NCBI GenBank assembly: GCA_002172675.1
Contig: NETF01000192.1
Location: 1-39,586, forward strand
Direction: 5' to 3'
DNA length: 39,586 bases
Source: an unicellular cyanobacterium SU3
GTDB taxonomy: Bacteria; Cyanobacteriota; Cyanobacteriia; Cyanobacteriales; Microcystaceae
Under the pieces are notes generated by a model. That model was not told the origin of the DNA. It saw only the letters and a list, made by a program, of their open reading frames with translations, and ran no database searches. Position 1 is the stretch's first letter. Each line of letters starts with the position of its first letter. This document shows positions 299 to 28,990 of the stretch, one piece after another. The translations under genes and the position numbers were made by a program.

Positions 299-2331
299 AA
301 GAGTAAGCTATTAGGATGAACATCGACGGTTCTCGGTAGTGTGTTTTCATTGGTACATCCTTCTGAGGGGGAACAATTATCTTGATAAAGGGCTAAATCA
401 AACCAAAACGTTGTACCGATTCCAACTTCACTAATCAGATGAATTTGACTGTGATGTTTATCAATAATATTTTTCACAATGGATAATCCTAACCCCGTTC
501 CTTCGAGGGTATGGACGCGATTTTCTACACGGAAAAACCGATCAAAAATAGCGGCTTGATCTTCGGCTGCAATACCAATTCCTGTGTCAGATATTTCTAC
601 TCTTACGCAGGATTTATCATTAAATTGTTTTGACTTTGTTTTAAAATGATAAGCCCGAATCATTATAATCCCACCAGGAGGGGTAAATTTGAGGGCATTT
701 CCCACTAAATTAGTCATGACTTGTAACAACAAATCATAATGTCCTAAGACTAACGGTAAATCATCTTCAACGTCTTTGTTTAAAACTAATTCTTTATCCC
801 TAGCATTCAGTTGGCAAGTTCTTACCGTTTGTTCAATTAACTGAGATAAATCTACCCCATCAAGATGATAAGTTTTAGAAGATTCTAGACGGGATAAATG
901 TAGAACATCGTTAACTAAATGAGTAAGGCGATCGGTTTCATGATTAGCCGTTTCTAAAAATTCTTTACGTTCTGCTTCTGTTAAATCTTCTCCGAATTCT
1001 GCCAAGGTTTCGATAAAAGATTTAATGTTAAATAACGGGGTTCTCAACTCGTGGGATACATTACTAATAAACTGACTTTTGGCTTCATTTAATTCTACTT
1101 CACGGGTAATATCCTGTACCGTCATTGCGATACCTTTTAAGTTTCCTCTGTGTTGATCAAATACCTGTGTTAAAAGAACTCTGACAATTCTTGATGTGGG
1201 TTGACTGAGACTAATACGATATTCCCCTGGATTTATTTTTTGTTGTAGAGATGACGTTTGTGTCGTTGTCTCTAGTTCTGACTCTTGAGATTCTGTCCCA
1301 TTTTGCTGTATCATTTGTTCTAGGGGAACTTGTAATTGAGTGGTTAATTCTTCGGGTAAAATTTCGAGAATATTCTCACCAATGACATCTTTTCCTTCCC
1401 AAACAAACATCCGTCTTGCTGTAGGATTAACTAATAATAAATTGAGATCAGTATCTAATAAAATTGCCCCATCGACAATGGTGGACACCAAAGTATCTAA
1501 TTTAGCCTTTTCTGCGGTTAATTCCTCAATATTTTGTTCTTCGTAACGTTCAAGACGTTTGGCCATTTCGTTGAAGCTAAAAATTAATTCTCCTAACTCT
1601 CCGCCAAAGGGAAGATTAATCCGTTGTTTAAAGTTTCCTGCTGCAATATTTTTCACCCCAACCAATAATTCTTTGATGGGACGAGTAATGGTCAACGCAT
1701 TAAAAACAGCCCCTAAAATGACCATAGCCCAAATTGCCACAAACACAGCGATGGTTACATCACGGGTTAAATTAGACGAGTTGACCACCGTAGCATTAGG
1801 ATTGATGCCGATTGCTAAATAACCTAAGTGTTTACCTTCGTGTTTGAGGGGAACAAAAACGTCGGTGACTTCACCGTTGGGACTTTTATGCTGTCGTACA
1901 AGGGGTAAGCTATCATGACCATCAGGAAAGTTAGGCAATTGTAATCGGCGTTCAATAGTTAAGGAGTTTTGAACCTCAGCCGATGAATAGGGAATGCCAA
2001 AGAAAATATGTCCTGTTTCGTCGGTGTAGATAATGTAACGGACACTAGAGGTACTTTGATAAAAGCGACTGGAAAAACGGGCGACATCAGTTAAATTATC
2101 CTCAGCAATAAGAGGGGTAACATTAGAAGCCAATAATAACCCCAAATCTCGACCAAAGCGCGTATCATTTAACTGTGCATCTTTTTGGATGCTATTAACC
2201 GCCCAAAAGGTTAAACCACTCATGAATAAGGAGACGGCCAGGGTTGCTGCTGCCATTAACTTGGTTTGCAGTGTAAATTCTGACCACCACCGTCTGAGAA
2301 TCTCTTTGATTTTGGTTAGGAGGTTAAACAA
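295..2331 (-). CDS. nblS: NblS/Hik33-type membrane sensor histidine kinase
   Basis: A 678-aa sensor kinase. The sequence shows a first membrane segment near residues 27-46, a periplasmic or lumenal sensor region, a second membrane segment near 195-215, a HAMP linker, a PAS domain, a dimerisation domain with the phospho-acceptor His at about residue 427 in VSHELRTPL, and an ATP-binding domain with G1/G2 boxes (DTGIGI, GTGLGL). Length, order and N-terminal sequence (MFNLLTKIKEI, FTLQTKLMAAATL) match the cyanobacterial NblS/Hik33 kinase, which in studied species controls high-light, nutrient and cold responses together with RpaB-type regulators. The start is TTG at 2331; it is preferred because the N-terminal residues match the family, and no better ATG lies upstream. 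No response regulator gene is adjacent, as is usual for this kinase. Confidence 0.93.
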   Translation of the reverse strand: MFNLLTKIKEILRRWWSEFTLQTKLMAAATLAVSLFMSGLTFWAVNSIQKDAQLNDTRFGRDLGLLLASNVTPLIAEDNLTDVARFSSRFYQSTSSVRYIIYTDETGHIFFGIPYSSAEVQNSLTIERRLQLPNFPDGHDSLPLVRQHKSPNGEVTDVFVPLKHEGKHLGYLAIGINPNATVVNSSNLTRDVTIAVFVAIWAMVILGAVFNALTITRPIKELLVGVKNIAAGNFKQRINLPFGGELGELIFSFNEMAKRLERYEEQNIEELTAEKAKLDTLVSTIVDGAILLDTDLNLLLVNPTARRMFVWEGKDVIGENILEILPEELTTQLQVPLEQMIQQNGTESQESELETTTQTSSLQQKINPGEYRISLSQPTSRIVRVLLTQVFDQHRGNLKGIAMTVQDITREVELNEAKSQFISNVSHELRTPLFNIKSFIETLAEFGEDLTEAERKEFLETANHETDRLTHLVNDVLHLSRLESSKTYHLDGVDLSQLIEQTVRTCQLNARDKELVLNKDVEDDLPLVLGHYDLLLQVMTNLVGNALKFTPPGGIIMIRAYHFKTKSKQFNDKSCVRVEISDTGIGIAAEDQAAIFDRFFRVENRVHTLEGTGLGLSIVKNIIDKHHSQIHLISEVGIGTTFWFDLALYQDNCSPSEGCTNENTLPRTVDVHPNSLLF

Positions 2332-2498
2332 GGCTAACTTACATTAAGATTTTGTAACATACAATCTATTCCCTACCATATTATATTAACTCGTCAAGAG
2401 CCTAGGGATAGAACTGAAAAGTCGTTAAAAAATAAATTTTTTTTGAATGGTTGAAATTGTTAGATCCCTATGCTAATATTAATAATTGTGAGATAAAT

Positions 2499-2583
2499 GG
2501 GTCGATGCCCGAGTGGTTAATGGGGGCGGACTGTAAATCCGCTGGCTATGCCTACGCTGGTTCAAATCCAGCTCGGCCCACCA
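2499..2583 (+). tRNA. tRNA-Tyr (GTA), CCA encoded
   Basis: The acceptor arms GGGTCGA and TCGGCCC (2573-2579) pair with one G-T, the anticodon GTA lies at 2533-2535, a long variable arm typical of bacterial tRNA-Tyr follows, and the T arm is GGTTCAAATCC. The discriminator A is at 2580 and CCA at 2581-2583 is encoded. It lies 12 bases before tRNA-Thr, so the two are probably co-transcribed. Confidence 0.95.
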
Positions 2584-2595
2584 CTTATAACACAC

Positions 2596-2667
2596 GCCCG
2601 TGTGGCTCAGTGGTAGAGCACACCCTTGGTAAGGGTGAGGTCACGAGTTCAATCCTCGTCACGGGCT
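2596..2667 (+). tRNA. tRNA-Thr (GGT)
   Basis: The acceptor arms GCCCGTG and CACGGGC (2660-2666) pair perfectly, the D arm reads GCTCAGTGGTAGAGC, the anticodon GGT is at 2628-2630 and the T arm contains GAGTTCAATCCTC. The discriminator is T and CCA is not encoded; a short T run follows directly. Confidence 0.95.
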
Positions 2668-2843
2668 TTTCACCTTAATATCACAATATCACTCGTTTTG
2701 CTAACTAATGTAAATTTATTAATGATTTGTTATCAATTGCGATCACTTTTCTTGATCAGGGTTGACCTGTCATTCCTGTGTGGTTAGATGAAATTTATCA
2801 AAAATTAGATAAGCGTTGAAAAAATATTCTGAACTTATAACTT

Positions 2844-3527
2844 TCATTTAATAATTTCTAATATTAAGTGATGACAGCGAAAATTTGAAGGATAGGATTT
2901 ATCTTGAGGAACATTACGTTGATGATCTGAAGTTTTGTGATGATAATTAAAAAAATCTGGGTGATTAGATAGTGTACAAGGTATCTTTTGCTCAATATTT
3001 GTAAATGCTTGATCTGGTGAACCTTTTAGTAAATATCCTAGCATTCCTCCTTCACTAGAAAAAGGTGCATAACGACAGGTTAAAAAATTATCTTTAATTT
3101 CTTTAATATATTCTGCTACTTTTCCATCTGAATGTAAAACTTTAGCTTCTAGCGGTAAAATAATTCTTTCATTAGCTATTAAAATAAATGCAATATCATA
3201 GGTTGGAGGTTGTGCTTGATCTGAATAACTTGTTTCAAGTTCAGAAACTTCATGTTGAACATCAAAAGTCTCATATCCTGTCATTCTACGACGAATTCTT
3301 CTTTCTAGAAGAGATGAAATACTTTTTTCGATTTCTTTATTCGCTTTTGTACAATCAACTTTTGATAATATATCTTCTTCCAGTATTTCATATCCCTGCC
3401 AAACTAATTTTAGTGCTGTTTTAGTTAAGTTTAAAGGCCATTCTTTGACAAGATTGACATATTCAGCATCTTCCATTGGCCATCTTAATTCTGCAATTGT
3501 TGTTCCTCTAATTCCTCGTTTCCCCAT
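2844..3527 (-). CDS. Putative PD-(D/E)xK nuclease of a restriction-modification island
   Basis: A 227-aa protein that I do not recognise by name. Residues 105-130 have the look of a PD-(D/E)xK nuclease core: Asp111 in a beta strand (PPTYDIAFIL) followed by ILPLEAKVL with Glu127-x-Lys129; Glu93 could be the helix acidic residue. It starts 10 bases after the stop of the DNA methylase gene on the same strand, so the two are probably one operon and this is the likely restriction subunit. The C-terminal third is rich in His, Asn and aromatic residues (HPDFFNYHHK, RCHHLIL) with no motif I can name. The start is ATG at 3527; no strong ribosome binding site is seen, which fits translational coupling. 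A different nuclease role within a defence locus is possible. Confidence 0.6.
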   Translation of the reverse strand: MGKRGIRGTTIAELRWPMEDAEYVNLVKEWPLNLTKTALKLVWQGYEILEEDILSKVDCTKANKEIEKSISSLLERRIRRRMTGYETFDVQHEVSELETSYSDQAQPPTYDIAFILIANERIILPLEAKVLHSDGKVAEYIKEIKDNFLTCRYAPFSSEGGMLGYLLKGSPDQAFTNIEQKIPCTLSNHPDFFNYHHKTSDHQRNVPQDKSYPSNFRCHHLILEIIK

Positions 3528-3537
3528 TGTCTAAAAT

Positions 3538-5849
3538 TTAATTAGTAGAGTTAATTTTTTGACCCGCTATCATAATATCCGCACAGATTTCATCTGCATC
3601 TTTTAATCCCATCGAACGAGTCCAATAACGAACTTTATCAGGTTTAATGAAATAAACAGTAGGAACTTTTATATCATTCCAAGTTACAGATTCATAAACT
3701 CTAGCAACTCGCTGATAGTAGATTCCTTCTTGTTGTGAATTGGGTTGATTTAAAAATAGTTCATTGAGTTTTTCTAATCTTTTTAGTAAGTTTGCTGAGT
3801 CTATGGTTTTAATTTTTATTTCCTCATGAATGGGATAATTAAGATGAATCGCAACTAAACGAACAGGTAAATAATTCTGATCAGGTTCTTGATATATAGT
3901 TGCACAAACATCTTTGTCTTTTCCAAAACTTGCTTTTATTACTCGGATAAAATAATCACAATATTGAGTTAATTCTGGTTCATTGTTTCGCTGTGTTTTT
4001 TGACGACCAGGAGATGAACTATCTCCTTTAAAATCGGGTAAAGTATACTTAAATAATGATTAGTAATGCTTTCTAGGGTAATAATACAAGTCGGAGAAAT
4101 GGCATTTTTAAACAATCCAAATCTTAAAGCTGATAAATCTACTATTTCAGATACTTTCCTGTCAGAAAATAGCTTGAAACGAAAATTGTGAGCAGTATTG
4201 ATTTTATTAAAAATTAATGCTCCTGCTGGTTGTATCATAGAAATGTAACCATTATCTTTAGTTAGTTTAATGGCTTTACTAAGAAAAAATGGAGCAATAT
4301 TCCCATAGGTTATACAATTATTCCAATTATATTTTTTTGTCCATATTTTTGCTTTTTTAGTAATGGTATTTCTTCCCCAAGGTGCATTACCTAAAACTAA
4401 ATCATATATTTTTGCATCTTCTTCTGTTTTAAACCCTTCGATATCTTCAGAAAAAAAGTCAGCAGCAATTAATTTTTTATTTCGTAAATTAGGAAATTTA
4501 ACCTCATTTTCCCAATAATTTTTAGGATCAATATGATCAAGCATCATTAAATAAAAACTAAAGGATGCTACTCTAATAGCTTCTTTGTCAATATCAACCC
4601 CTAAAAAATTATTTTCTAATAGGGATTTTAAAACATCAGGAGTAATATTTTTATTATGTGCTTTTTCCCAACGATAAATTAAGCGTTGATAAGCTTTAAC
4701 GAGAAATATTCCTGAACCACAAGCAGGATCAAGAATTTTTAGATTCCATTCTTCATCTTCCCAAGGTAAGACCCCATCTAGGATAAAATCCACAATAAAT
4801 TCTGGTGTATAATGAACTCCTTTGCCTTCTTTTTTACTCACAAATTCCTCATAAATACTACTAATAAATTCAAGGGGAATAACGTCAAAGGAATACATCG
4901 GCCATAAACATAGTTGACCTGTTTTTAACTCTAAGTCACCTCTAATAAAATCAGCAAGTTTTTTGAAATAAGAATCTTTTTGTTTGACCTTATCCATTTC
5001 TGCTTGCCATTCTTGTTCTCTCTCTGTTTCTGTACTTCCTTTACCTGGAAACAAATCTCCATTAAATTTATTATTTAACCAGCGAAAAAGTTGATAGCTA
5101 TCTTCAAAACTCTCTAAGATATCAGATAAGTTATCATAGGCTTTTGATAAAATGTTGGTGTTAACTAAATCTTGTATAATTTCTTGATTAAGCGCAGGAT
5201 TACCGTCAAGATCCTTTTTTTGAAATAAATATTGAATAAAAATCAATCTAGCAAGTAAATCATGAATTGTCCCTGAATCTAATCCTTCATCAATTAACTG
5301 TTTTCTAACTTCTTTTAAGTTTTCCAGTAATTTTTGATCTGCTGCACCACTACGCTGAAAACGATCACTATGTTTCTCAAAGAATTCACCAGAAACTAAC
5401 TCAACCCACTGTAAAGCATTAGCTGCTTGTTCGGATAAGGAAGCTTGATTAATTTCCTGAATAGGATTAGGTATTTTTGAAGGTTCAGGAGGTTCACAGC
5501 ACGACCATAGTCTTAATAATTGCGGTTCTACCGTAATTAATGCTCTAGTCCGACTAAAACTCCATGCTAGTCGATAAACTTCTTTTAGTGTCTTGTCAGA
5601 AATAGGTCTAGAAAACTTACAAACAACGGCCAAAGGGCTTTCTGTGGCATCGCCGATGGGATTTGCTGCTAATATCCCTACTTTAGCTCCTTTTGCTTCT
5701 TCAAGCTCTCTCCTAATTTTATTACCAATTTTTTCATCCGCCAATCTAGCATAAACCCTTGGTCCGGCCCCACTTGGTTGCCAAATTTGGTGAGGAGGTG
5801 GCCAGTAAAGTTTTTGGTGGGTAAGTTCCAGTAGGCGAGACTCAGACAT
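3538..5849 (-). pseudogene. N6-adenine DNA methylase (type IIG/Eco57I-like), interrupted by one frameshift
   Basis: The upstream frame encodes an adenine methyltransferase: SAM-binding motif I (ILDPACGSGIFLVKAY, near residue 370) and catalytic motif IV as NAPW (4377-4388), a variant of NPPW. An N-terminal domain of about 330 residues precedes it. That frame reaches a stop at 3969, but another frame is open with no stop from about 4058 down to TAA at 3538-3540, giving about 170 more residues (starting YTLPDFKGDSSSPG, ending AGQKINSTN). This segment has no ATG, GTG or TTG start near its beginning. Adding one base at the AAA/TTT run at 4051-4053 joins the frames into about 770 residues. I take ATG at 5849 (MSESRLLELTHQ) as the start; an upstream start at 5912 is less likely. 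The gene is divergent from a MerR-like regulator and upstream of a nuclease. Whether the frameshift is real or a read error cannot be told here. Confidence 0.75.
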
Positions 5850-5964
5850 CTTTGAGTAAATTGATTTCCCAAGATTACTAGAGAACTGTAATGTATTATA
5901 GAATAGTAACAATGTTTTTTCAGTTAATGTATTCTATTTTTACAAAAAAATAATACGTCAAATA

Positions 5965-5976
5965 CTACAGATGTAG
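5965..5976. promoter_or_regulatory. Small dyad in the divergent promoter region of the methylase island
   Basis: CTACAGATGTAG is an inverted repeat with 5-bp arms and a two-base centre. It ends nine bases before the ATG of the MerR-like gene, in the 135-base region between divergent genes. Position suggests an operator or autoregulatory site, but arms this short can arise by chance. AGGA at 5975-5978 serves as the probable ribosome binding site. Confidence 0.3.
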
Positions 5977-5984
5977 GATGTAAC

Positions 5985-6500
5985 ATGAGCCTTATACACG
6001 GATTTACCAGACAAGAAACCATCGCATTGACGGATACTACGTCTAATCGACTTCAGTACCTAGAGAGACAAGGTTTGGTGATACCTCAGCGCATTGGTAA
6101 GTCCCGTAAACCGACGGTTATTTATAGTTGGGAGCAAATTCTCGAAATTCGTGCTATTAAGCGTCTACGGAAAAATGTCTCTAGTCAAACAATAAAAAAG
6201 ATCATTCAATTTTTAGATAAAAGTGGTGTTGATGAGAGTTTAAGAGACAAACATTTGATTGTTATTAACGATGAGGTTTTCTGGGTTCAGCAAGATTGGT
6301 CAGATTTACAGCAAAAAATACCAACTATCGTTAAGGTTGCAGGAAAAGATAATATTAATATTGGTCAGTATATGCTGTTAGTTATCCCTATTTTTTCAGA
6401 TATTATTCAGGAAGTTTGGAAAGCTGCTAAAAAATCAGAATTAATCGATTTTGAAAGTTTTAAGGAACGAGCAAAAGTTAATGAGAATAAAATTGCATAG
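5985..6500 (+). CDS. MerR-like helix-turn-helix regulator
   Basis: A 171-aa protein with an N-terminal winged-helix region of MerR type: FTRQETIALTDTTSNRLQYL then ERQGLVIPQRIG and YSWEQILEIRAIKRLRK, the usual order of helix-turn-helix, wing and second helix pair. The C-terminal half (residues 80-171) lacks clustered cysteines or a known ligand domain, so metal sensing is not indicated. It is transcribed away from the methylase gene across a 135-base gap, so the simplest reading is a controller that times methylase and nuclease expression, an unusual fold for that role compared with the Xre-like C proteins. That role is inferred from position only. Start ATG with AGGA nearby. Confidence 0.7.
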   Translation: MSLIHGFTRQETIALTDTTSNRLQYLERQGLVIPQRIGKSRKPTVIYSWEQILEIRAIKRLRKNVSSQTIKKIIQFLDKSGVDESLRDKHLIVINDEVFWVQQDWSDLQQKIPTIVKVAGKDNINIGQYMLLVIPIFSDIIQEVWKAAKKSELIDFESFKERAKVNENKIA

Positions 6501-6587
6501 GATGTTTATTTAGCTCTCGTTCATTATAGTTATTAATATTTTCTAGATACAATATTTTAGCATAGTGTGTACTGAAAAATGACAAAG

Positions 6588-6612
6588 GTAAGGTAGGCAT
6601 AGCCCACCCTAC
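6588..6612. repeat. Imperfect palindromic repeat, copy 1
   Basis: An imperfect palindrome of the form GTAAGGTAGGC...GCCCACCCTAC, followed by AAAGTT. A closely similar unit lies at 20074-20098, also followed by AAAGT. It sits just beyond the end of ppsA on the minus strand and could act as its terminator, but the recurrence points to a dispersed small repeat. Confidence 0.55.
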
Positions 6613-6621
6613 AAAGTTAAG

Positions 6622-9114
6622 TTAACCCTTCTCAACTTCTGCCACCATTAATAAGGTTTTCAAGACAGAATCAGGGTTTAAACTCATCGAATCAATTCCT
6701 AATTCAACTAAGAATTTAGCAAACTCTGGATAATCACTCGGTGCTTGTCCACAAATACCAATTTTACGGCCTTTTTTCTTAGCGGTTTCTATGGCTAATT
6801 TAACCATTCGTTTCACCCCTTCATTGCGTTCGTCGAACAATTGAGCCACTAAAGCAGAGTCACGATCTAATCCTAATGTAAGCTGAGTTAAATCATTAGA
6901 ACCGATGGAAAAACCGTCAAATACTTCAGCAAATTGATCCGCTAAAATGACGTTACTGGGTAACTCGCACATGACATAAATTTTCAGATTATTCCCCCCT
7001 TGTTTGAGTCCATGTTTTGCCATCTCTGCAATCACTTTCTTCCCTTCTTCTGGGGTACGACAAAAAGGAATCATGGGGATAACATTAACTAAACCCATCT
7101 CATTCCGTACCATTTTCAACGCCTCACATTCTAGGGCAAATGCGTCGCGATACATGGGATCATAATAACGAGATGCACCGCGCCAACCAATCATAGGATT
7201 ATCTTCTTTGGGTTCAAATTGTTGTCCCCCTAATAAGTTGGCATATTCATTAGTTTTAAAGTCAGACATCCGCACAATAACGGGTTTAGGATAGAATGAA
7301 GCTGCGATCGTTGCCACCCCTCGCGCTAATTTATCGATGAAAAATTGTGGTTTATCATCGTAGCGTTTGGTTAATTCTGCAATTTGTTCTTTAACTCCTT
7401 CGTCTTCTAATTCATCGAAGTTCATTAAGGCTAAAGGATGGGCTTTAATATGGTTCGCAATAATGAATTCTAAACGGGCCAAACCGACACCTTGGGCGGG
7501 AATATTAGCTAAAGAAAAGGCTTTTTCTGGGTTGCCCACATTCATCAAAATTTGTGTTTTGGTAGTGGGTAAATTATCCAGTTGGTTTTCTTCAACTTCA
7601 AAGGGCAATAATCCCTCATATACCTTGCCTTCGTCTCCTTCAGAACAACAGATGGTGACTTCTTGACGGGTTTTTATTTTATCAGTGGCATCCCCACAAC
7701 CAACAATGGCAGGAATACCCATTTCACGGGCTATAATGGCAGCATGACAGGTTCTACCCCCTTGATTTGTAACGATCGCACTGGCTTTTTTCATGATGGG
7801 TTCCCAGTCAGGATCGGTGCGGTTGGTAATGAGGACTTCCCCTGGTTTGAATTGGTCTATTTTACTGGCTTCGAGGATGACACGGGCTTTCCCTTGACCG
7901 ATGGCAGCCCCCACACTGCGTCCGATGGCGACAACGTTACTATGGTCTTTTAAATGATAGGTTTTGAGGACATTCCCTGATTTACGGCCTTGTACGGTTT
8001 CTGGCCGGGCTTGGACAATGTAGAGGTCTCCGGTGCGTCCATCTTTTGCCCATTCAATGTCCATGGGGGTATAACTTTCCCTCACTTGAGAATAGTGATC
8101 TTCAATAATAGAAGCCCATTCCCCTAATTTTAAAATTTCTTCATCGGATAAACAAAATTTTTCTTGTTCTTCTCGTAAGACTTCGACATTTTTAGTCAGT
8201 TTTGATCCGCCGGTATCGTAGATCATTTTCACGGCTTTCGTACCGACTTTTTTATCTAAAATAGGTCGATATCCTTGTTTTAAAGTGGGTTTAAATACAT
8301 AGTATTCGTCTGGGTTAACGGAACCTTGAACCACATTTTCTCCTAACCCGTAGGCTGCAGTAATTAAGGCCGCATTTTTAAAGCCGGTTTCGGTATCAAT
8401 AGAAAACATCACACCGGCAGAAGCTAAGTCGGATCTGACCATCTTTTGTACCCCAACGGAAAGAGCAACTTCAAAGTGATCAAATCCGTTATTTTCACGA
8501 TAGGAAATAGCGCGATCGGTAAATAAAGAAGCAAAGCATTTATGACAGGCTTCTAGGACTCCTTTTACACTATGAATATTGAGGTAAGTTTCTTGTTGTC
8601 CGGCAAAACTAGCATCAGGTAAATCTTCTGCTGTGGCACTGGAACGAACCGCTACATCCAGGTTTTGGGTTTCTATTTCGCATTCTTCGCGATATTTTTC
8701 ACTCAGTTGACCGCATTCATCACTGTAGCGATCGCATAAGGTTTTATAGGCTTTTTTAATCGCTTCTTGTAGTTCTTTTGGGAAGGGTGTATTTAAAATT
8801 AAAGAACGAGCTAATTGTCCTCTTTCTTGTAAATTAGCAACATCATTAACGTCTAAATCTGCAAATAAATCTCTTAGTCTTGATTCTAATTCGGCTGATT
8901 CTATAAAGTGTCGATAGGCATAAGCAGTGGTAGCAAATCCTGTAGGAACCTTGATACCTTTAGGATTCAATTGTTGAATCATTTCTCCTAAAGATGAGTT
9001 TTTTCCCCCCACTAAACCCACATCTTTACTTCCGACTTCTTCAAACCACAAAATAAATGCTGTTTCTCTATTGCTGGTTGGGGTTATTTCGTTCGTCGTT
9101 GTCACCATAATCAA
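6622..9114 (-). CDS. ppsA: Phosphoenolpyruvate synthase (pyruvate, water dikinase)
   Basis: An 830-aa enzyme that converts pyruvate, ATP and water to PEP, AMP and phosphate, used in gluconeogenic carbon flow. The N-terminal ATP-grasp/PPDK domain begins ILWFEEVGSKDVGLVGGKNSSLGEM and includes VRSSATAEDLPDASFAGQ. The swivelling phosphohistidine domain has GGRTCHAAIIARE with His at residue 457. The C-terminal TIM-barrel PEP-binding domain ends with IGICGQAPSDYPEF, the active Cys at residue 788. Length and domain order are full. It stands alone; upstream is a long AT-rich region and the MerR-like gene converges on its end. The annotated ATG is followed two codons later by another ATG, so the exact start is uncertain by two residues. 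Confidence 0.96.
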   Translation of the reverse strand: MIMVTTTNEITPTSNRETAFILWFEEVGSKDVGLVGGKNSSLGEMIQQLNPKGIKVPTGFATTAYAYRHFIESAELESRLRDLFADLDVNDVANLQERGQLARSLILNTPFPKELQEAIKKAYKTLCDRYSDECGQLSEKYREECEIETQNLDVAVRSSATAEDLPDASFAGQQETYLNIHSVKGVLEACHKCFASLFTDRAISYRENNGFDHFEVALSVGVQKMVRSDLASAGVMFSIDTETGFKNAALITAAYGLGENVVQGSVNPDEYYVFKPTLKQGYRPILDKKVGTKAVKMIYDTGGSKLTKNVEVLREEQEKFCLSDEEILKLGEWASIIEDHYSQVRESYTPMDIEWAKDGRTGDLYIVQARPETVQGRKSGNVLKTYHLKDHSNVVAIGRSVGAAIGQGKARVILEASKIDQFKPGEVLITNRTDPDWEPIMKKASAIVTNQGGRTCHAAIIAREMGIPAIVGCGDATDKIKTRQEVTICCSEGDEGKVYEGLLPFEVEENQLDNLPTTKTQILMNVGNPEKAFSLANIPAQGVGLARLEFIIANHIKAHPLALMNFDELEDEGVKEQIAELTKRYDDKPQFFIDKLARGVATIAASFYPKPVIVRMSDFKTNEYANLLGGQQFEPKEDNPMIGWRGASRYYDPMYRDAFALECEALKMVRNEMGLVNVIPMIPFCRTPEEGKKVIAEMAKHGLKQGGNNLKIYVMCELPSNVILADQFAEVFDGFSIGSNDLTQLTLGLDRDSALVAQLFDERNEGVKRMVKLAIETAKKKGRKIGICGQAPSDYPEFAKFLVELGIDSMSLNPDSVLKTLLMVAEVEKG

Positions 9115-10562: not shown

Positions 10563-10619
10563 ACTCCCGACCCTCTCGGATTTTAAATCCGAGAGGAAAG
10601 CGGGAGTGCATTCTGCACT
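10563..10619. repeat. Compound hairpin inserted in the dead transposase
   Basis: Outer arms ACTCCCG (10563-10569) and CGGGAGT (10601-10607) enclose a perfect inner hairpin, CCTCTCGGATTT (10572-10583) and AAATCCGAGAGG (10585-10596) with one loop base. A third small hairpin, AGTGCA-TTC-TGCACT (10605-10619), overlaps the right outer arm. The unit falls between the transposase residues STPIKV and HPFRSK, where it adds a stop codon on the minus strand. It shares the word CATTCTGC with the other hairpin. Confidence 0.8.
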
Positions 10620-11112
10620 TTTATTGGGGTAGAATCAATAAAACTAATACCTGTTATTTTTCCAGTTCTAGTTTGTAAAAAACAGCATAGTAACATCATT
10701 GACCAAGGCATTAGTTCCACAAATCTATTATAACTAACAAGATTAGGAAAAGCTTTTTTCCAATGTGGTAACTCTTGTAGAGTATAAAATTCTTTGAATG
10801 TACGATAACCCGACCCATGACACGCAATTACAATAGTCATAAATTCACTTAAACTGAGACGAGAACGATATAACTTTTCTCCGACAGATGATGTAATTTG
10901 AAGGAGAGATGAAGTGTATTTTTGAAAAGCTTTATGAAAATCATCTACATCCCAAAAAACTTCAGTCAGGTCAATACGAGATTCTAAAGTCATTACATTA
11001 ACCATCAAAGAACAATCCCTTTAGTATAGGTCAAATGTTCTGTTTAGGCTTCAGAAATTTCCGTCGAACTCACGTTAGCCGAAGGCTTGAAGTCTATTCG
11101 GATGGTGATATA

Positions 11113-28000: not shown

Positions 28001-28914
28001 TTAAGGACTTTGTAACAATAAAGGTAATTTATCCTCTCCCCCTCCAATAATAATCACCTTAGAGTTTTCAGACTCTGCTAATTTTTGGGTAGCTTCTATG
28101 GCTTTTAATTTAATTAATTGTTCTGTCAACCCTTGAGATAATAACCGTTGTGAGTCAGCCACACCTTGGGCTTCAATTTTCTTACGAGTGGCTTCCTGTT
28201 GCGCTTTTTCTAATTCAAAAGAGATTGCTTGTCGTTCTTTTTCATTAATAAACTGTTGTTTTTGACTGGCTTGTTGCGCTTCTAATTTTTCTTCTATGGC
28301 TTTTTGAATCGTTTGAGGTAAAATCACATTTCTCAATAAGCTTTCATCGACAATAAACCCCAAGGGTTCTAAACTTTTATTGAGTTCATTTCTTAATTTG
28401 TCAGCCACAATAGCCCTTTTTTCTCCATAAATATCTCGGGCATCGTAGCTGGCGGTAATTTGACGAATAATTGAGCGAAAGCGAGGAATTAAAATCTCTT
28501 CTTCTTCTGTACCAATAGTTTGATAAACCGTAGACGCTTGTTGAGGATTAATTTTATATTGTAGACTTACATCTAACTTTAAATTTAAACCTTCTTTTGA
28601 AGTGGCTCTTTTATATCTTGTAAACGAGTGGAAAATTTGGTGACTTTTGCCAAAGGACTAATTAAATGGATACCAGAGTTTAACGGTTGTTCCTGAACCT
28701 TGCCAAAGGTTTCTACGACTCCCACCTCTCCGGCAGGCAGAACCACTAAAAAACGAAATATAATTTGATAAATAGCCGAAAAAGCAGCCAAACATCCAAT
28801 TAAAAAAGCAATGGCTTTGACTTTATTTTGATGAGTTTCTCCCCCTAAACCGGTATTACGAAAAGTAATTAAAAAAGCAACTAAGGCCGTAATTAAAGAA
28901 ACAATAACAGACAT
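28001..28914 (-). pseudogene. Prohibitin-like SPFH-domain protein, interrupted by one frameshift
   Basis: The upstream frame starts MSVIVSLITALVAFLITF at ATG 28914 (GGAG seven bases before) and has a second hydrophobic segment before VLPAGEVGVVETFGKVQEQP, the start of an SPFH domain. It stops soon after TRLQDIKE near 28585. The other frame continues without a stop: ATSKEGLNLKLDVSLQYKI, IIRQITASYDARDIYGEKRA, then VADKLRNELNKSLEPLGF, a long charged helix and the end IIIGGGEDKLPLLLQSP. Adding one A in the run at 28609-28612 gives QDIKRATSKEG and an intact protein of about 304 aa, close to prohibitin size. The intact form would be a membrane scaffold protein. The lesion may be a sequencing error. 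Confidence 0.85.
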
Positions 28915-28990
28915 TTTAAGCTCCAGCAATTAACAATATAGTAGTTTTTATACTTATGAAATACCAACTTTTTTAATGTTAGGGATGGTA

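Follow-up and report, generated by a model that had tools for sequence, protein, structure and literature searches.

Closest Described Systems

Type V-K CRISPR-associated transposons (CASTs) are cyanobacterial elements, AnCAST among them. According to one published account, their left end usually lies downstream of a tRNA gene that points at the transposon, most of their cargo sits between cas12k and tniQ, and restriction-modification (RM) systems are frequent within that cargo (PMC9938897). In a survey's account of Tn7-like transposons, RM likewise is the commonest defence cargo (PMC8649781). Considered here is a small locus, positions 2844 to 6500 of a 39,586-nucleotide stretch of DNA (contig NETF01000192.1, assembly GCA_002172675.1) from the unicellular cyanobacterium SU3, a stretch which, as a whole, we call the window. 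The locus holds an N6-adenine methylase gene, a gene for a small candidate nuclease, and a gene for a MerR-family regulator. It is like the published V-K CASTs in its tRNA-adjacent site, in being cargo of the kind found from tniQ to cvkR/cas12k, and in that cargo being RM (PMC9938897). It differs in that the window keeps only cargo along with a 3' relic of cvkR, in that the methylase is broken, and in that the cargo MerR is distinct from CvkR.

CvkR is the MerR-type repressor of V-K CASTs, and the window regulator resembles it in family, in its divergent promoter arrangement, and in belonging to a cyanobacterial mobile element. The window MerR nevertheless has a different dyad and is linked to cargo and other defence genes rather than to cas12k. 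That it simply is CvkR is ruled out, as the two are 19–20% identical, as both are present as separate genes in each of two related loci (L027 and L143), and as the window MerR does not occupy a cas12k-adjacent position.

For the methylase, the closest described relatives are the Type IIG-like methylases of the Eco57I family (the REase_MTase_IIG models of PADLOC, with PglX of BREX more distant), which share with it the N6-methylase core and layout. PADLOC model PDLC03603 thus matches the window methylase open reading frame (ORF; E=2.9e-43) and, over nearly its whole length, the distant methylase of L143 (E=1.9e-79). Model PDLC03623 matches the methylase of L027 (E=2.5e-41), L027 being the intact reference locus, from Crocosphaera sp. 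MO_133.B10. Unlike with Type IIG, however, the best matches of the window and L027 proteins begin only after about residue 140, and the candidate nuclease has a gene of its own, located downstream.

The controller (C) proteins of type II RM systems, which are the known RM switches, are Xre-like. As with the regulator considered here, they are small DNA-binding proteins encoded adjacent to the operon that they control, and the promoter region of that operon includes a dyad; in the window, binding of the MerR protein to such a dyad is a prediction. The window regulator possesses instead a MerR-type helix-turn-helix (HTH), and members of its family adjoin a number of unrelated defence systems. 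Already known are the carriage of RM genes by CASTs, degenerate CASTs and the methylase family. We found no report, by contrast, of a MerR-type protein controlling RM, or defence systems of any other kind, in the openly licensed full-text literature, which makes for a weak claim of absence. A MerR in a Pseudomonas defence hotspot is described, in what its source says of that gene, as a core flanking gene (PMC10250203).

The Locus

Our preferred reading, which we hold to be probable, is that the locus is a MerR-controlled two-gene restriction module, now inactive, that was left behind as cargo of a decayed type V-K CAST. Its features are as follows:

2844..3527, minus strand: small PD-(D/E)xK-type nuclease candidate; intact ORF of 227 amino acids (aa), 74% identical to that of L027
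3538..4059, minus strand: methylase C-terminal fragment, out of frame; 173 codons, equivalent to residues 894-1066 of the intact protein
3969..5849, minus strand: N6-adenine methylase, open frame cut short at 626 aa, with Eco57I/N6_Mtase domains (ORF call and Pfam)
4055..4056: junction of a 793-bp deletion within the methylase gene (BLAST against L027)
5929..5956: 28-bp dyad GTAT-N20-ATAC, proposed MerR operator, sole copy in the window
5985..6500, plus strand: MerR-family regulator, intact, 171 aa, 94% identical to that of L027, not CvkR

The original prediction was of a three-gene locus. Its nuclease and MerR ORFs hold up; its methylase, as a single gene, does not, since that gene is split between two frames. 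The divergently transcribed MerR-like regulator is matched by Pfam MerR_1 (E=2e-6; 28.2 bits, against a cut-off of 21.6). The 135-base region said to be shared by the divergent genes is exact (5850-5984), given the methylase start taken as the ATG at 5849. A D-x15-E-x-K core is present in the 227-aa ORF as D111-x15-E127-x-K129. The methylase frame, for its part, matches Pfam N6_Mtase (E=1.4e-16) and Eco57I (E=1.7e-19), and its alignment includes LDPACGSG and NAPW, which we take to be motifs I and IV. Relatives of the window proteins stand side by side in other genomes (E reaching 0 among methylase matches and 1.4e-114 among nuclease matches), and because the same proteins so recur, their adjacency goes beyond chance.

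The MerR Family and Its Neighbourhoods

A MerR search profile, built from 11 sequences, matched in 60 of 388 genomes of the class. Of the resulting 73 matches, 50 neighbourhoods were examined, including all 29 rows above 220 bits, with the other 23 matches lower-scoring. Six of ten plasmid matches were opened, the remaining four being from strains of one species. The 58 loci read had their neighbours clustered, with names supplied by hidden Markov model (HMM) scans for part of the loci and otherwise by clustering, record annotation or eye. L153-L156 repeat L203, L214, L216 and L221, i.e., the same or near-same plasmids, and are left out of the counts of 33 and 55 given below. The 220-bit line separating high- from low-scoring MerRs was chosen after the data had been seen.

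Among the 33 distinct loci above that line, several of which have near-identical MerRs, 23 lie beside RM or defence genes. These neighbours are of quite different kinds. The methylase/nuclease pair, or a distant version of it, accounts for 11 loci (the window, L027, L193-L197 and L140-L143), and an N6-methylase of about 925 aa together with an MBL-type protein for another six (L144, L149, L201, L202, L203 and L206). Type I restriction genes are found at three (L145, a fragment; L148; L152). Single loci are adjacent to QatABCD (L151; QatA at E=2e-272), to a C5-methylase, beyond which a Z1-domain protein is encoded (L199), and, at a distance of 2.2 kb, to another DNA methylase (L200). Some lower-scoring relatives adjoin IetS- and HmaC-like genes as well (L156), and many of the remaining lower-scoring ones lie among apparent core genes. 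As separate observations, the combination of MerR, the ~925-aa N6-methylase and the MBL-type protein, the last of these LmuA/DRT-MBL-like, has the look of one more candidate defence system; a Cas12k relic is nearby in L206; and a MerR of the same family is found, by eye, amid apparent phage structural genes (L231, 5995-6507).

In all 11 methylase/nuclease loci the MerR gene is separated from the methylase gene by only 3-194 bp, taking ORF ends as called. By way of background, 186 N6_Mtase matches over 20 genomes (110.9 Mb), genomes selected for carrying the MerR or the pair, imply that about 2% of random places have such a match within 5 kb, with about 0.6% expected to have one within 200 bp. 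Comparison among genomes supports the MerR-type regulator as a recurrent partner both of the methylase/nuclease pair and of other defence systems.

Might the MerR gene be a chance neighbour instead? Defence genes pile up, and any regulator found among them could look linked. Defence islands do indeed cluster, and 10 of the 33 high-scoring loci are without a recognised defence gene. The observed closeness of the methylase, in 11 of 11 loci against the roughly 0.6% expected, nevertheless argues against this alternative, as does the clade specificity of the dyads described below, and we regard it as unlikely. Seven of those ten loci, all in one family of the class, are beside a gene that clusters with a B12-type ribonucleotide reductase, an identity checked by HMM at L192 only. 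In that branch (L146, L188-L192 and L198) the MerR is 308-349 bp from the gene, which in L192 carries an intein, and no common dyad was seen. Possibly this represents recruitment as a housekeeping regulator. At the other three (L147, L204 and L205) nothing was recognised nearby, by eye.

A Dyad That Follows the Regulator

All eight close-family trios, i.e., MerR, methylase and nuclease as found in the window, L027, L193-L197 and L228, possess in their divergent region one aligned dyad of constant length, GTAT-N20-ATAC. The 39.6-kb window holds a single copy. The related MerRs at Qat (L151) and at L200 have the same dyad upstream, and the 824 kb examined contain 16 copies in all, of which 10 are at these MerR loci. 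By clade of the MerR tree, 10 of the 11 clade-A loci possess GTAT-N20-ATAC and none of the 44 others does. A second dyad, TGTTT-N19-AAACA, is possessed by all nine clade-B loci and by none of the 46 others. Clade B consists of the distant methylase/PD-ExK version along with methylase/MBL. In clade C, of seven rows, TTCT-N18-AGAA is seen in four.

The tree clades (support of 86/88 for the clade-A fork and 99/97 for clade B) were made before the arm words, with the exact arm words chosen after seeing the data, and there are fewer independent lineages than rows, i.e., about six in clade A and about four in clade B. With dinucleotide resampling, 0 of 2000 sets reach the sharing observed in six diverged clade-A loci, and likewise for four clade-B loci; in a first such test, of four clade-A loci, 1 of 2000 had any shared dyad. 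Identity within the dyad is 69% vs 31% in the flanks for clade A, and 72% vs 39% for clade B. The published CvkR motif, given by its source as AnnACATnATGTnnT (PMC9938897), differs from GTAT-N20-ATAC.

The dyad, that is, follows the MerR clade and not the defence system. From this tracking, it therefore is most simply a putative MerR binding site, and most simply too there would be a regulator-plus-operator unit that is shared between different defence systems. We lean, as one joint claim, towards this MerR clade being a ‘portable’ defence controller. The regulator and its own dyad operator would move as one cassette to positions before unrelated anti-phage systems (methylase/PD-ExK, methylase/MBL, type I RM, Qat and C5-methylase), in cyanobacteria, in their plasmids, on phage-like contigs and in CRISPR-associated transposons, with the operator following the clade of the regulator rather than the effector. 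The original idea of a MerR-type controller has gained, in the recurrent defence neighbours and clade-specific dyads, strong comparative support.

The Methylase–Nuclease Pair

Among 386 genomes drawn evenly from the phylum, the nuclease was matched in nine (its own included), and in nine of nine the methylase adjoins it. One of these nuclease matches, that of G076 at 26% identity, is weak. The pair is also found on a Methylobacterium plasmid, and a complete trio is carried by a phage-like IMG/VR contig (L228, 101-4660) on which a portal gene was recognised by eye. Comparatively, the methylase and the PD-(D/E)xK-type protein are supported as a conserved pair. Co-conservation of the trio, by which the original prediction was to be judged, is seen only in part: eight close-family loci have the MerR, L194-L197 being near-copies, and six do not detectably have it. 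In the distant version, MerR is accompanied by a methylase of 1006-1016 aa and a third protein of 217-218 aa (L140, L141 and L143); at L142 the third gene was not seen.

In the nuclease candidate, none of E67, D111, E127 and K129 varies across the 15 sequences aligned. When the profiles of the close-family and distant third genes are compared, their D, E and K positions coincide (hhalign probability 84%, E=7e-6). Based on motif and conservation, the protein is a candidate PD-(D/E)xK nuclease.

The Broken Methylase

In L027 the intact methylase is a single frame of 1066 aa. In the window the frame closes instead at 3969, and the 173 codons that would come next (3538-4059) are in a different frame. 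It is from this displaced fragment, rather than from the methylase proper, that the reported methylase–nuclease spacing of 10 bases was taken; nor are these codons the last 170 residues of the methylase ORF, as had been supposed, lying as they do in a frame other than that of 3969-5849. Window DNA aligns to the L027 methylase region in three stretches and, by BLAST placement, skips L027 positions 7891-8683. This is 793 bp, and with its loss the frame therefore was lost too. Missing from the window copy are residues ~631-894, a part which follows the catalytic domain (Pfam match 365-637). It is this region, from the catalytic domain towards the C-terminus, that we propose may hold target recognition.

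Ratios of nonsynonymous to synonymous substitution (dN/dS), relative to L027, are 0.14 for the methylase before the break and 0.13 after, 0.07 for MerR, and 0.46 for the nuclease. Because the ratio is equally low on both sides, the break looks recent. The nuclease value, against 0.17-0.37 in three other pairs, is no more than suggestive of decay. Another copy, L029 (G034, 4069-7662), is the third and has decayed independently: its methylase has stops and an end in another frame and its nuclease is shortened to 166 aa. To judge from its sequence, the methylase/nuclease module is inactive in the window genome, and neither methylation nor restriction by it should be expected.

A module that is intact in the cell, with the 793-bp deletion an artefact of assembly, would undo this conclusion. 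The genome is a 208-contig draft, and the displaced fragment shows as low a dN/dS as does sequence upstream of the break (0.13 and 0.14). Low ratios, however, fit a recent deletion too, the junction is mid-contig with good homology to both sides, and the other copy, L029, is broken too. We consider such an artefact distinctly unlikely.

A Probable Transposon Remnant Beside a tRNA Pair

The trio of L027 sits within a type V-K CAST, flanked by tniQ on one side and by cvkR-cas12k on the other, in the order TnsB-TnsC-TniQ, MerR/methylase/nuclease, CvkR, Cas12k, CRISPR array. TnsB-TnsC-TniQ are at 3181-5328, with tnsB of 326 aa and tnsC of 160 aa, lengths which we take to be below the usual ones. 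The CvkR-like MerR (139 aa) and Cas12k (612 aa) are followed by five CRISPR repeats of ~37 nt. TnsB has HTH and rve domain matches and the CvkR-like protein a MerR_1 match. Cas12k, TnsC and TniQ presumably are such based on sequence features, with Cas12k named also from its neighbours and the CRISPR array; a Pfam scan of this Cas12k returned nothing above chance. The corresponding window features are these:

2499..2583, plus strand: tRNA-Tyr(gta), host gene at the insertion site (ARAGORN)
2596..2667, plus strand: tRNA-Thr(ggt), pointing at the element (ARAGORN)
2711..2819, plus strand: relic of cvkR, the V-K CAST regulator gene, consisting of its 3' end with an in-frame TGA, translation ending in PVIPVWLDEIYQKLDKR before the stop (alignment to L027 CvkR)
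6503..6504: right limit of homology to the L027 CAST, in L027 20 bp from the end of tniQ

Window homology to L027 is limited to 2711-6503, i.e., the trio and the cvkR 3' end. Beyond 6503/6504, comparison to L027 finds no tniQ-tnsC-tnsB homology in the window, and the L027 Cas12k has no match in the window genome (G000), while 14 of the 39 genomes of the same search have one. The core genes cas12k, tnsB, tnsC and tniQ have no match in the window, hence ‘remnant’ rather than CAST. As to other hallmarks, cvkR adjoins the cargo in the form of the relic at 2711-2819, the entire order being found only in L027, and the position is downstream of tRNA genes that point at the element (tRNA-Tyr/Thr, 2499-2667, plus strand).

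The left flank (window 1900-2760) is matched in nine of nine genomes of the genus, its own included, as is the ppsA flank. Left-flank homology ends at 2668-2677 in all eight congeners compared; for G002 and G007, the match to the tRNA part and that to the upstream gene fall on separate contigs. Both flanks are kept on a single contig in G006 and G005, where ~2 kb of unrelated sequence separates them.

Of the 14 close-family loci tested, in stretches of 7-20 kb, six showed CAST parts. Besides the window and L027, these are L134 (TnsB, a TnsC piece, TniQ, CvkR and Cas12k, plus tRNA-Pro), L136 (a TnsB piece; tRNA-Arg), L137 (a TniQ piece; tRNA-Thr) and L139 (the Cas12k N-terminus). With the distant version, L143 carries Cas12k, CvkR and TnsB, no CAST part was seen at L140-L142, and at L142 a tRNA-Leu points at the locus. 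Because of the CAST context of L027, the cvkR 3' relic by the tRNAs, and the lack of a Cas12k match, the best reading of the window locus is as the former cargo of a CAST that has decayed next to a tRNA pair, and we infer that the window once held a whole CAST.

An intact, free-standing and previously undescribed restriction island, as the locus was initially proposed to be, is by comparison very unlikely. Nuclease and MerR frames are intact, and MerR evolves slowly (dN/dS of 0.07 vs L027). The methylase, however, has lost 793 bp, residues ~631-894 and its frame, and the cvkR relic together with the tRNA site marks the locus as CAST leftovers, so that for the window copy this proposal is already refuted unless the deletion is an assembly error. 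That MerR is instead a second CvkR, one regulating transposition rather than restriction genes, draws on CASTs carrying a MerR-type regulator and on the trio MerR being inside a CAST in L027 and L143, but is highly improbable given the separate, dissimilar CvkR of both elements, the accompaniment of trios by MerR where no CAST part was found (L193-L197), and a published CvkR motif unlike GTAT-N20-ATAC (PMC9938897).

Several further observations concern this region and the window. The interval from tRNA-Thr to ppsA (window 2668-6588) is a variable spot, with small genes there in G006 and G005. A short repeat at 6575-6626 has at least one further copy in each of nine genus genomes searched. On contig C195 of G008 (L045, 5879-19982, with L027) two V-K CASTs are in tandem beside tRNA-Pro, the second with a 2666-aa repeat-protein cargo and a different Cas12k. 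Elsewhere in the window, a 141-aa, transposase-like fragment is found by eye at 10583-11008 (minus strand), presumably of an insertion sequence given its look, and an SPFH/prohibitin-like protein, also by eye, at 28001-28929 (minus strand) is apparently split into two ORFs, possibly by a frame break.

Points Weighing Against the Preferred Reading

A number of results sit less comfortably with a MerR-controlled restriction module that was carried by a CAST. Regarding control, ten high-scoring MerR loci, as noted, are without a recognised defence gene, the clade-A MerR of L148 is without GTAT-N20-ATAC, and the close-family pair is without a detected MerR at six loci (L029, L134 and L136-L139), as is the distant version at L150; L135 is uninformative in this regard, its contig ending 492 bp upstream. 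As the pair occurs without a detected MerR, MerR is not essential to it. Regarding the transposon, CAST ends, terminal repeats or target duplication were not recognised, by eye, at either window junction, and within the 7-20 kb read CAST parts were not found at L029, L135 (contig edge), L138 or L193-L197.

Regarding the nuclease, the window protein has no match in Pfam, NCBIfam, PADLOC or PHROGs, a search of PDB sequences with the family profile returned no hit up to an E of 10, and two relatives have Pfam matches at chance level only. Its AlphaFold model, from three input sequences, is unusable (predicted local distance difference test, pLDDT, of 30.8), as is that of the intact methylase (pLDDT of 30.5; two input sequences). 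It is because of this lack of database matches and of a usable model that the fold assignment is a matter of the motif and how well it is conserved.

A Proposed History and What It Would Mean

In the preferred reading, i.e., that of an inactive module left by a decayed CAST, a type V-K CAST would have entered downstream of tRNA-Tyr/tRNA-Thr. Deletion on one side would have taken its left end, CRISPR array, cas12k and most of cvkR, and on the other side tniQ-tnsC-tnsB along with its right end, leaving the cargo. As an RM module, that cargo would have employed its ~1060-aa N6-adenine methylase to mark its site, with the small PD-(D/E)xK-type nuclease cutting unmarked DNA only together with, that is, as guided by, the methylase. 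MerR would bind the 28-bp dyad in the shared promoter region and limit transcription both of its own gene and of the operon, or may activate rather than repress. The nuclease probably is harmless alone, because the window keeps an intact nuclease frame beside a broken methylase and a free-acting nuclease, if expressed, should do harm.

On reaching a new host, an RM system, like other defence systems, has to hold back or restrain expression of its nuclease, and for this it needs a switch. A MerR switch with a clade-specific operator, if indeed common to unrelated systems, would represent a general and predictable controller, and the ligand of that MerR, if it has one, could signal infection. 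The operator rule would offer as well a route to finding undescribed defence operons. The locus itself suggests that CASTs may bring in defence genes next to tRNAs, with the element around those genes decaying later.

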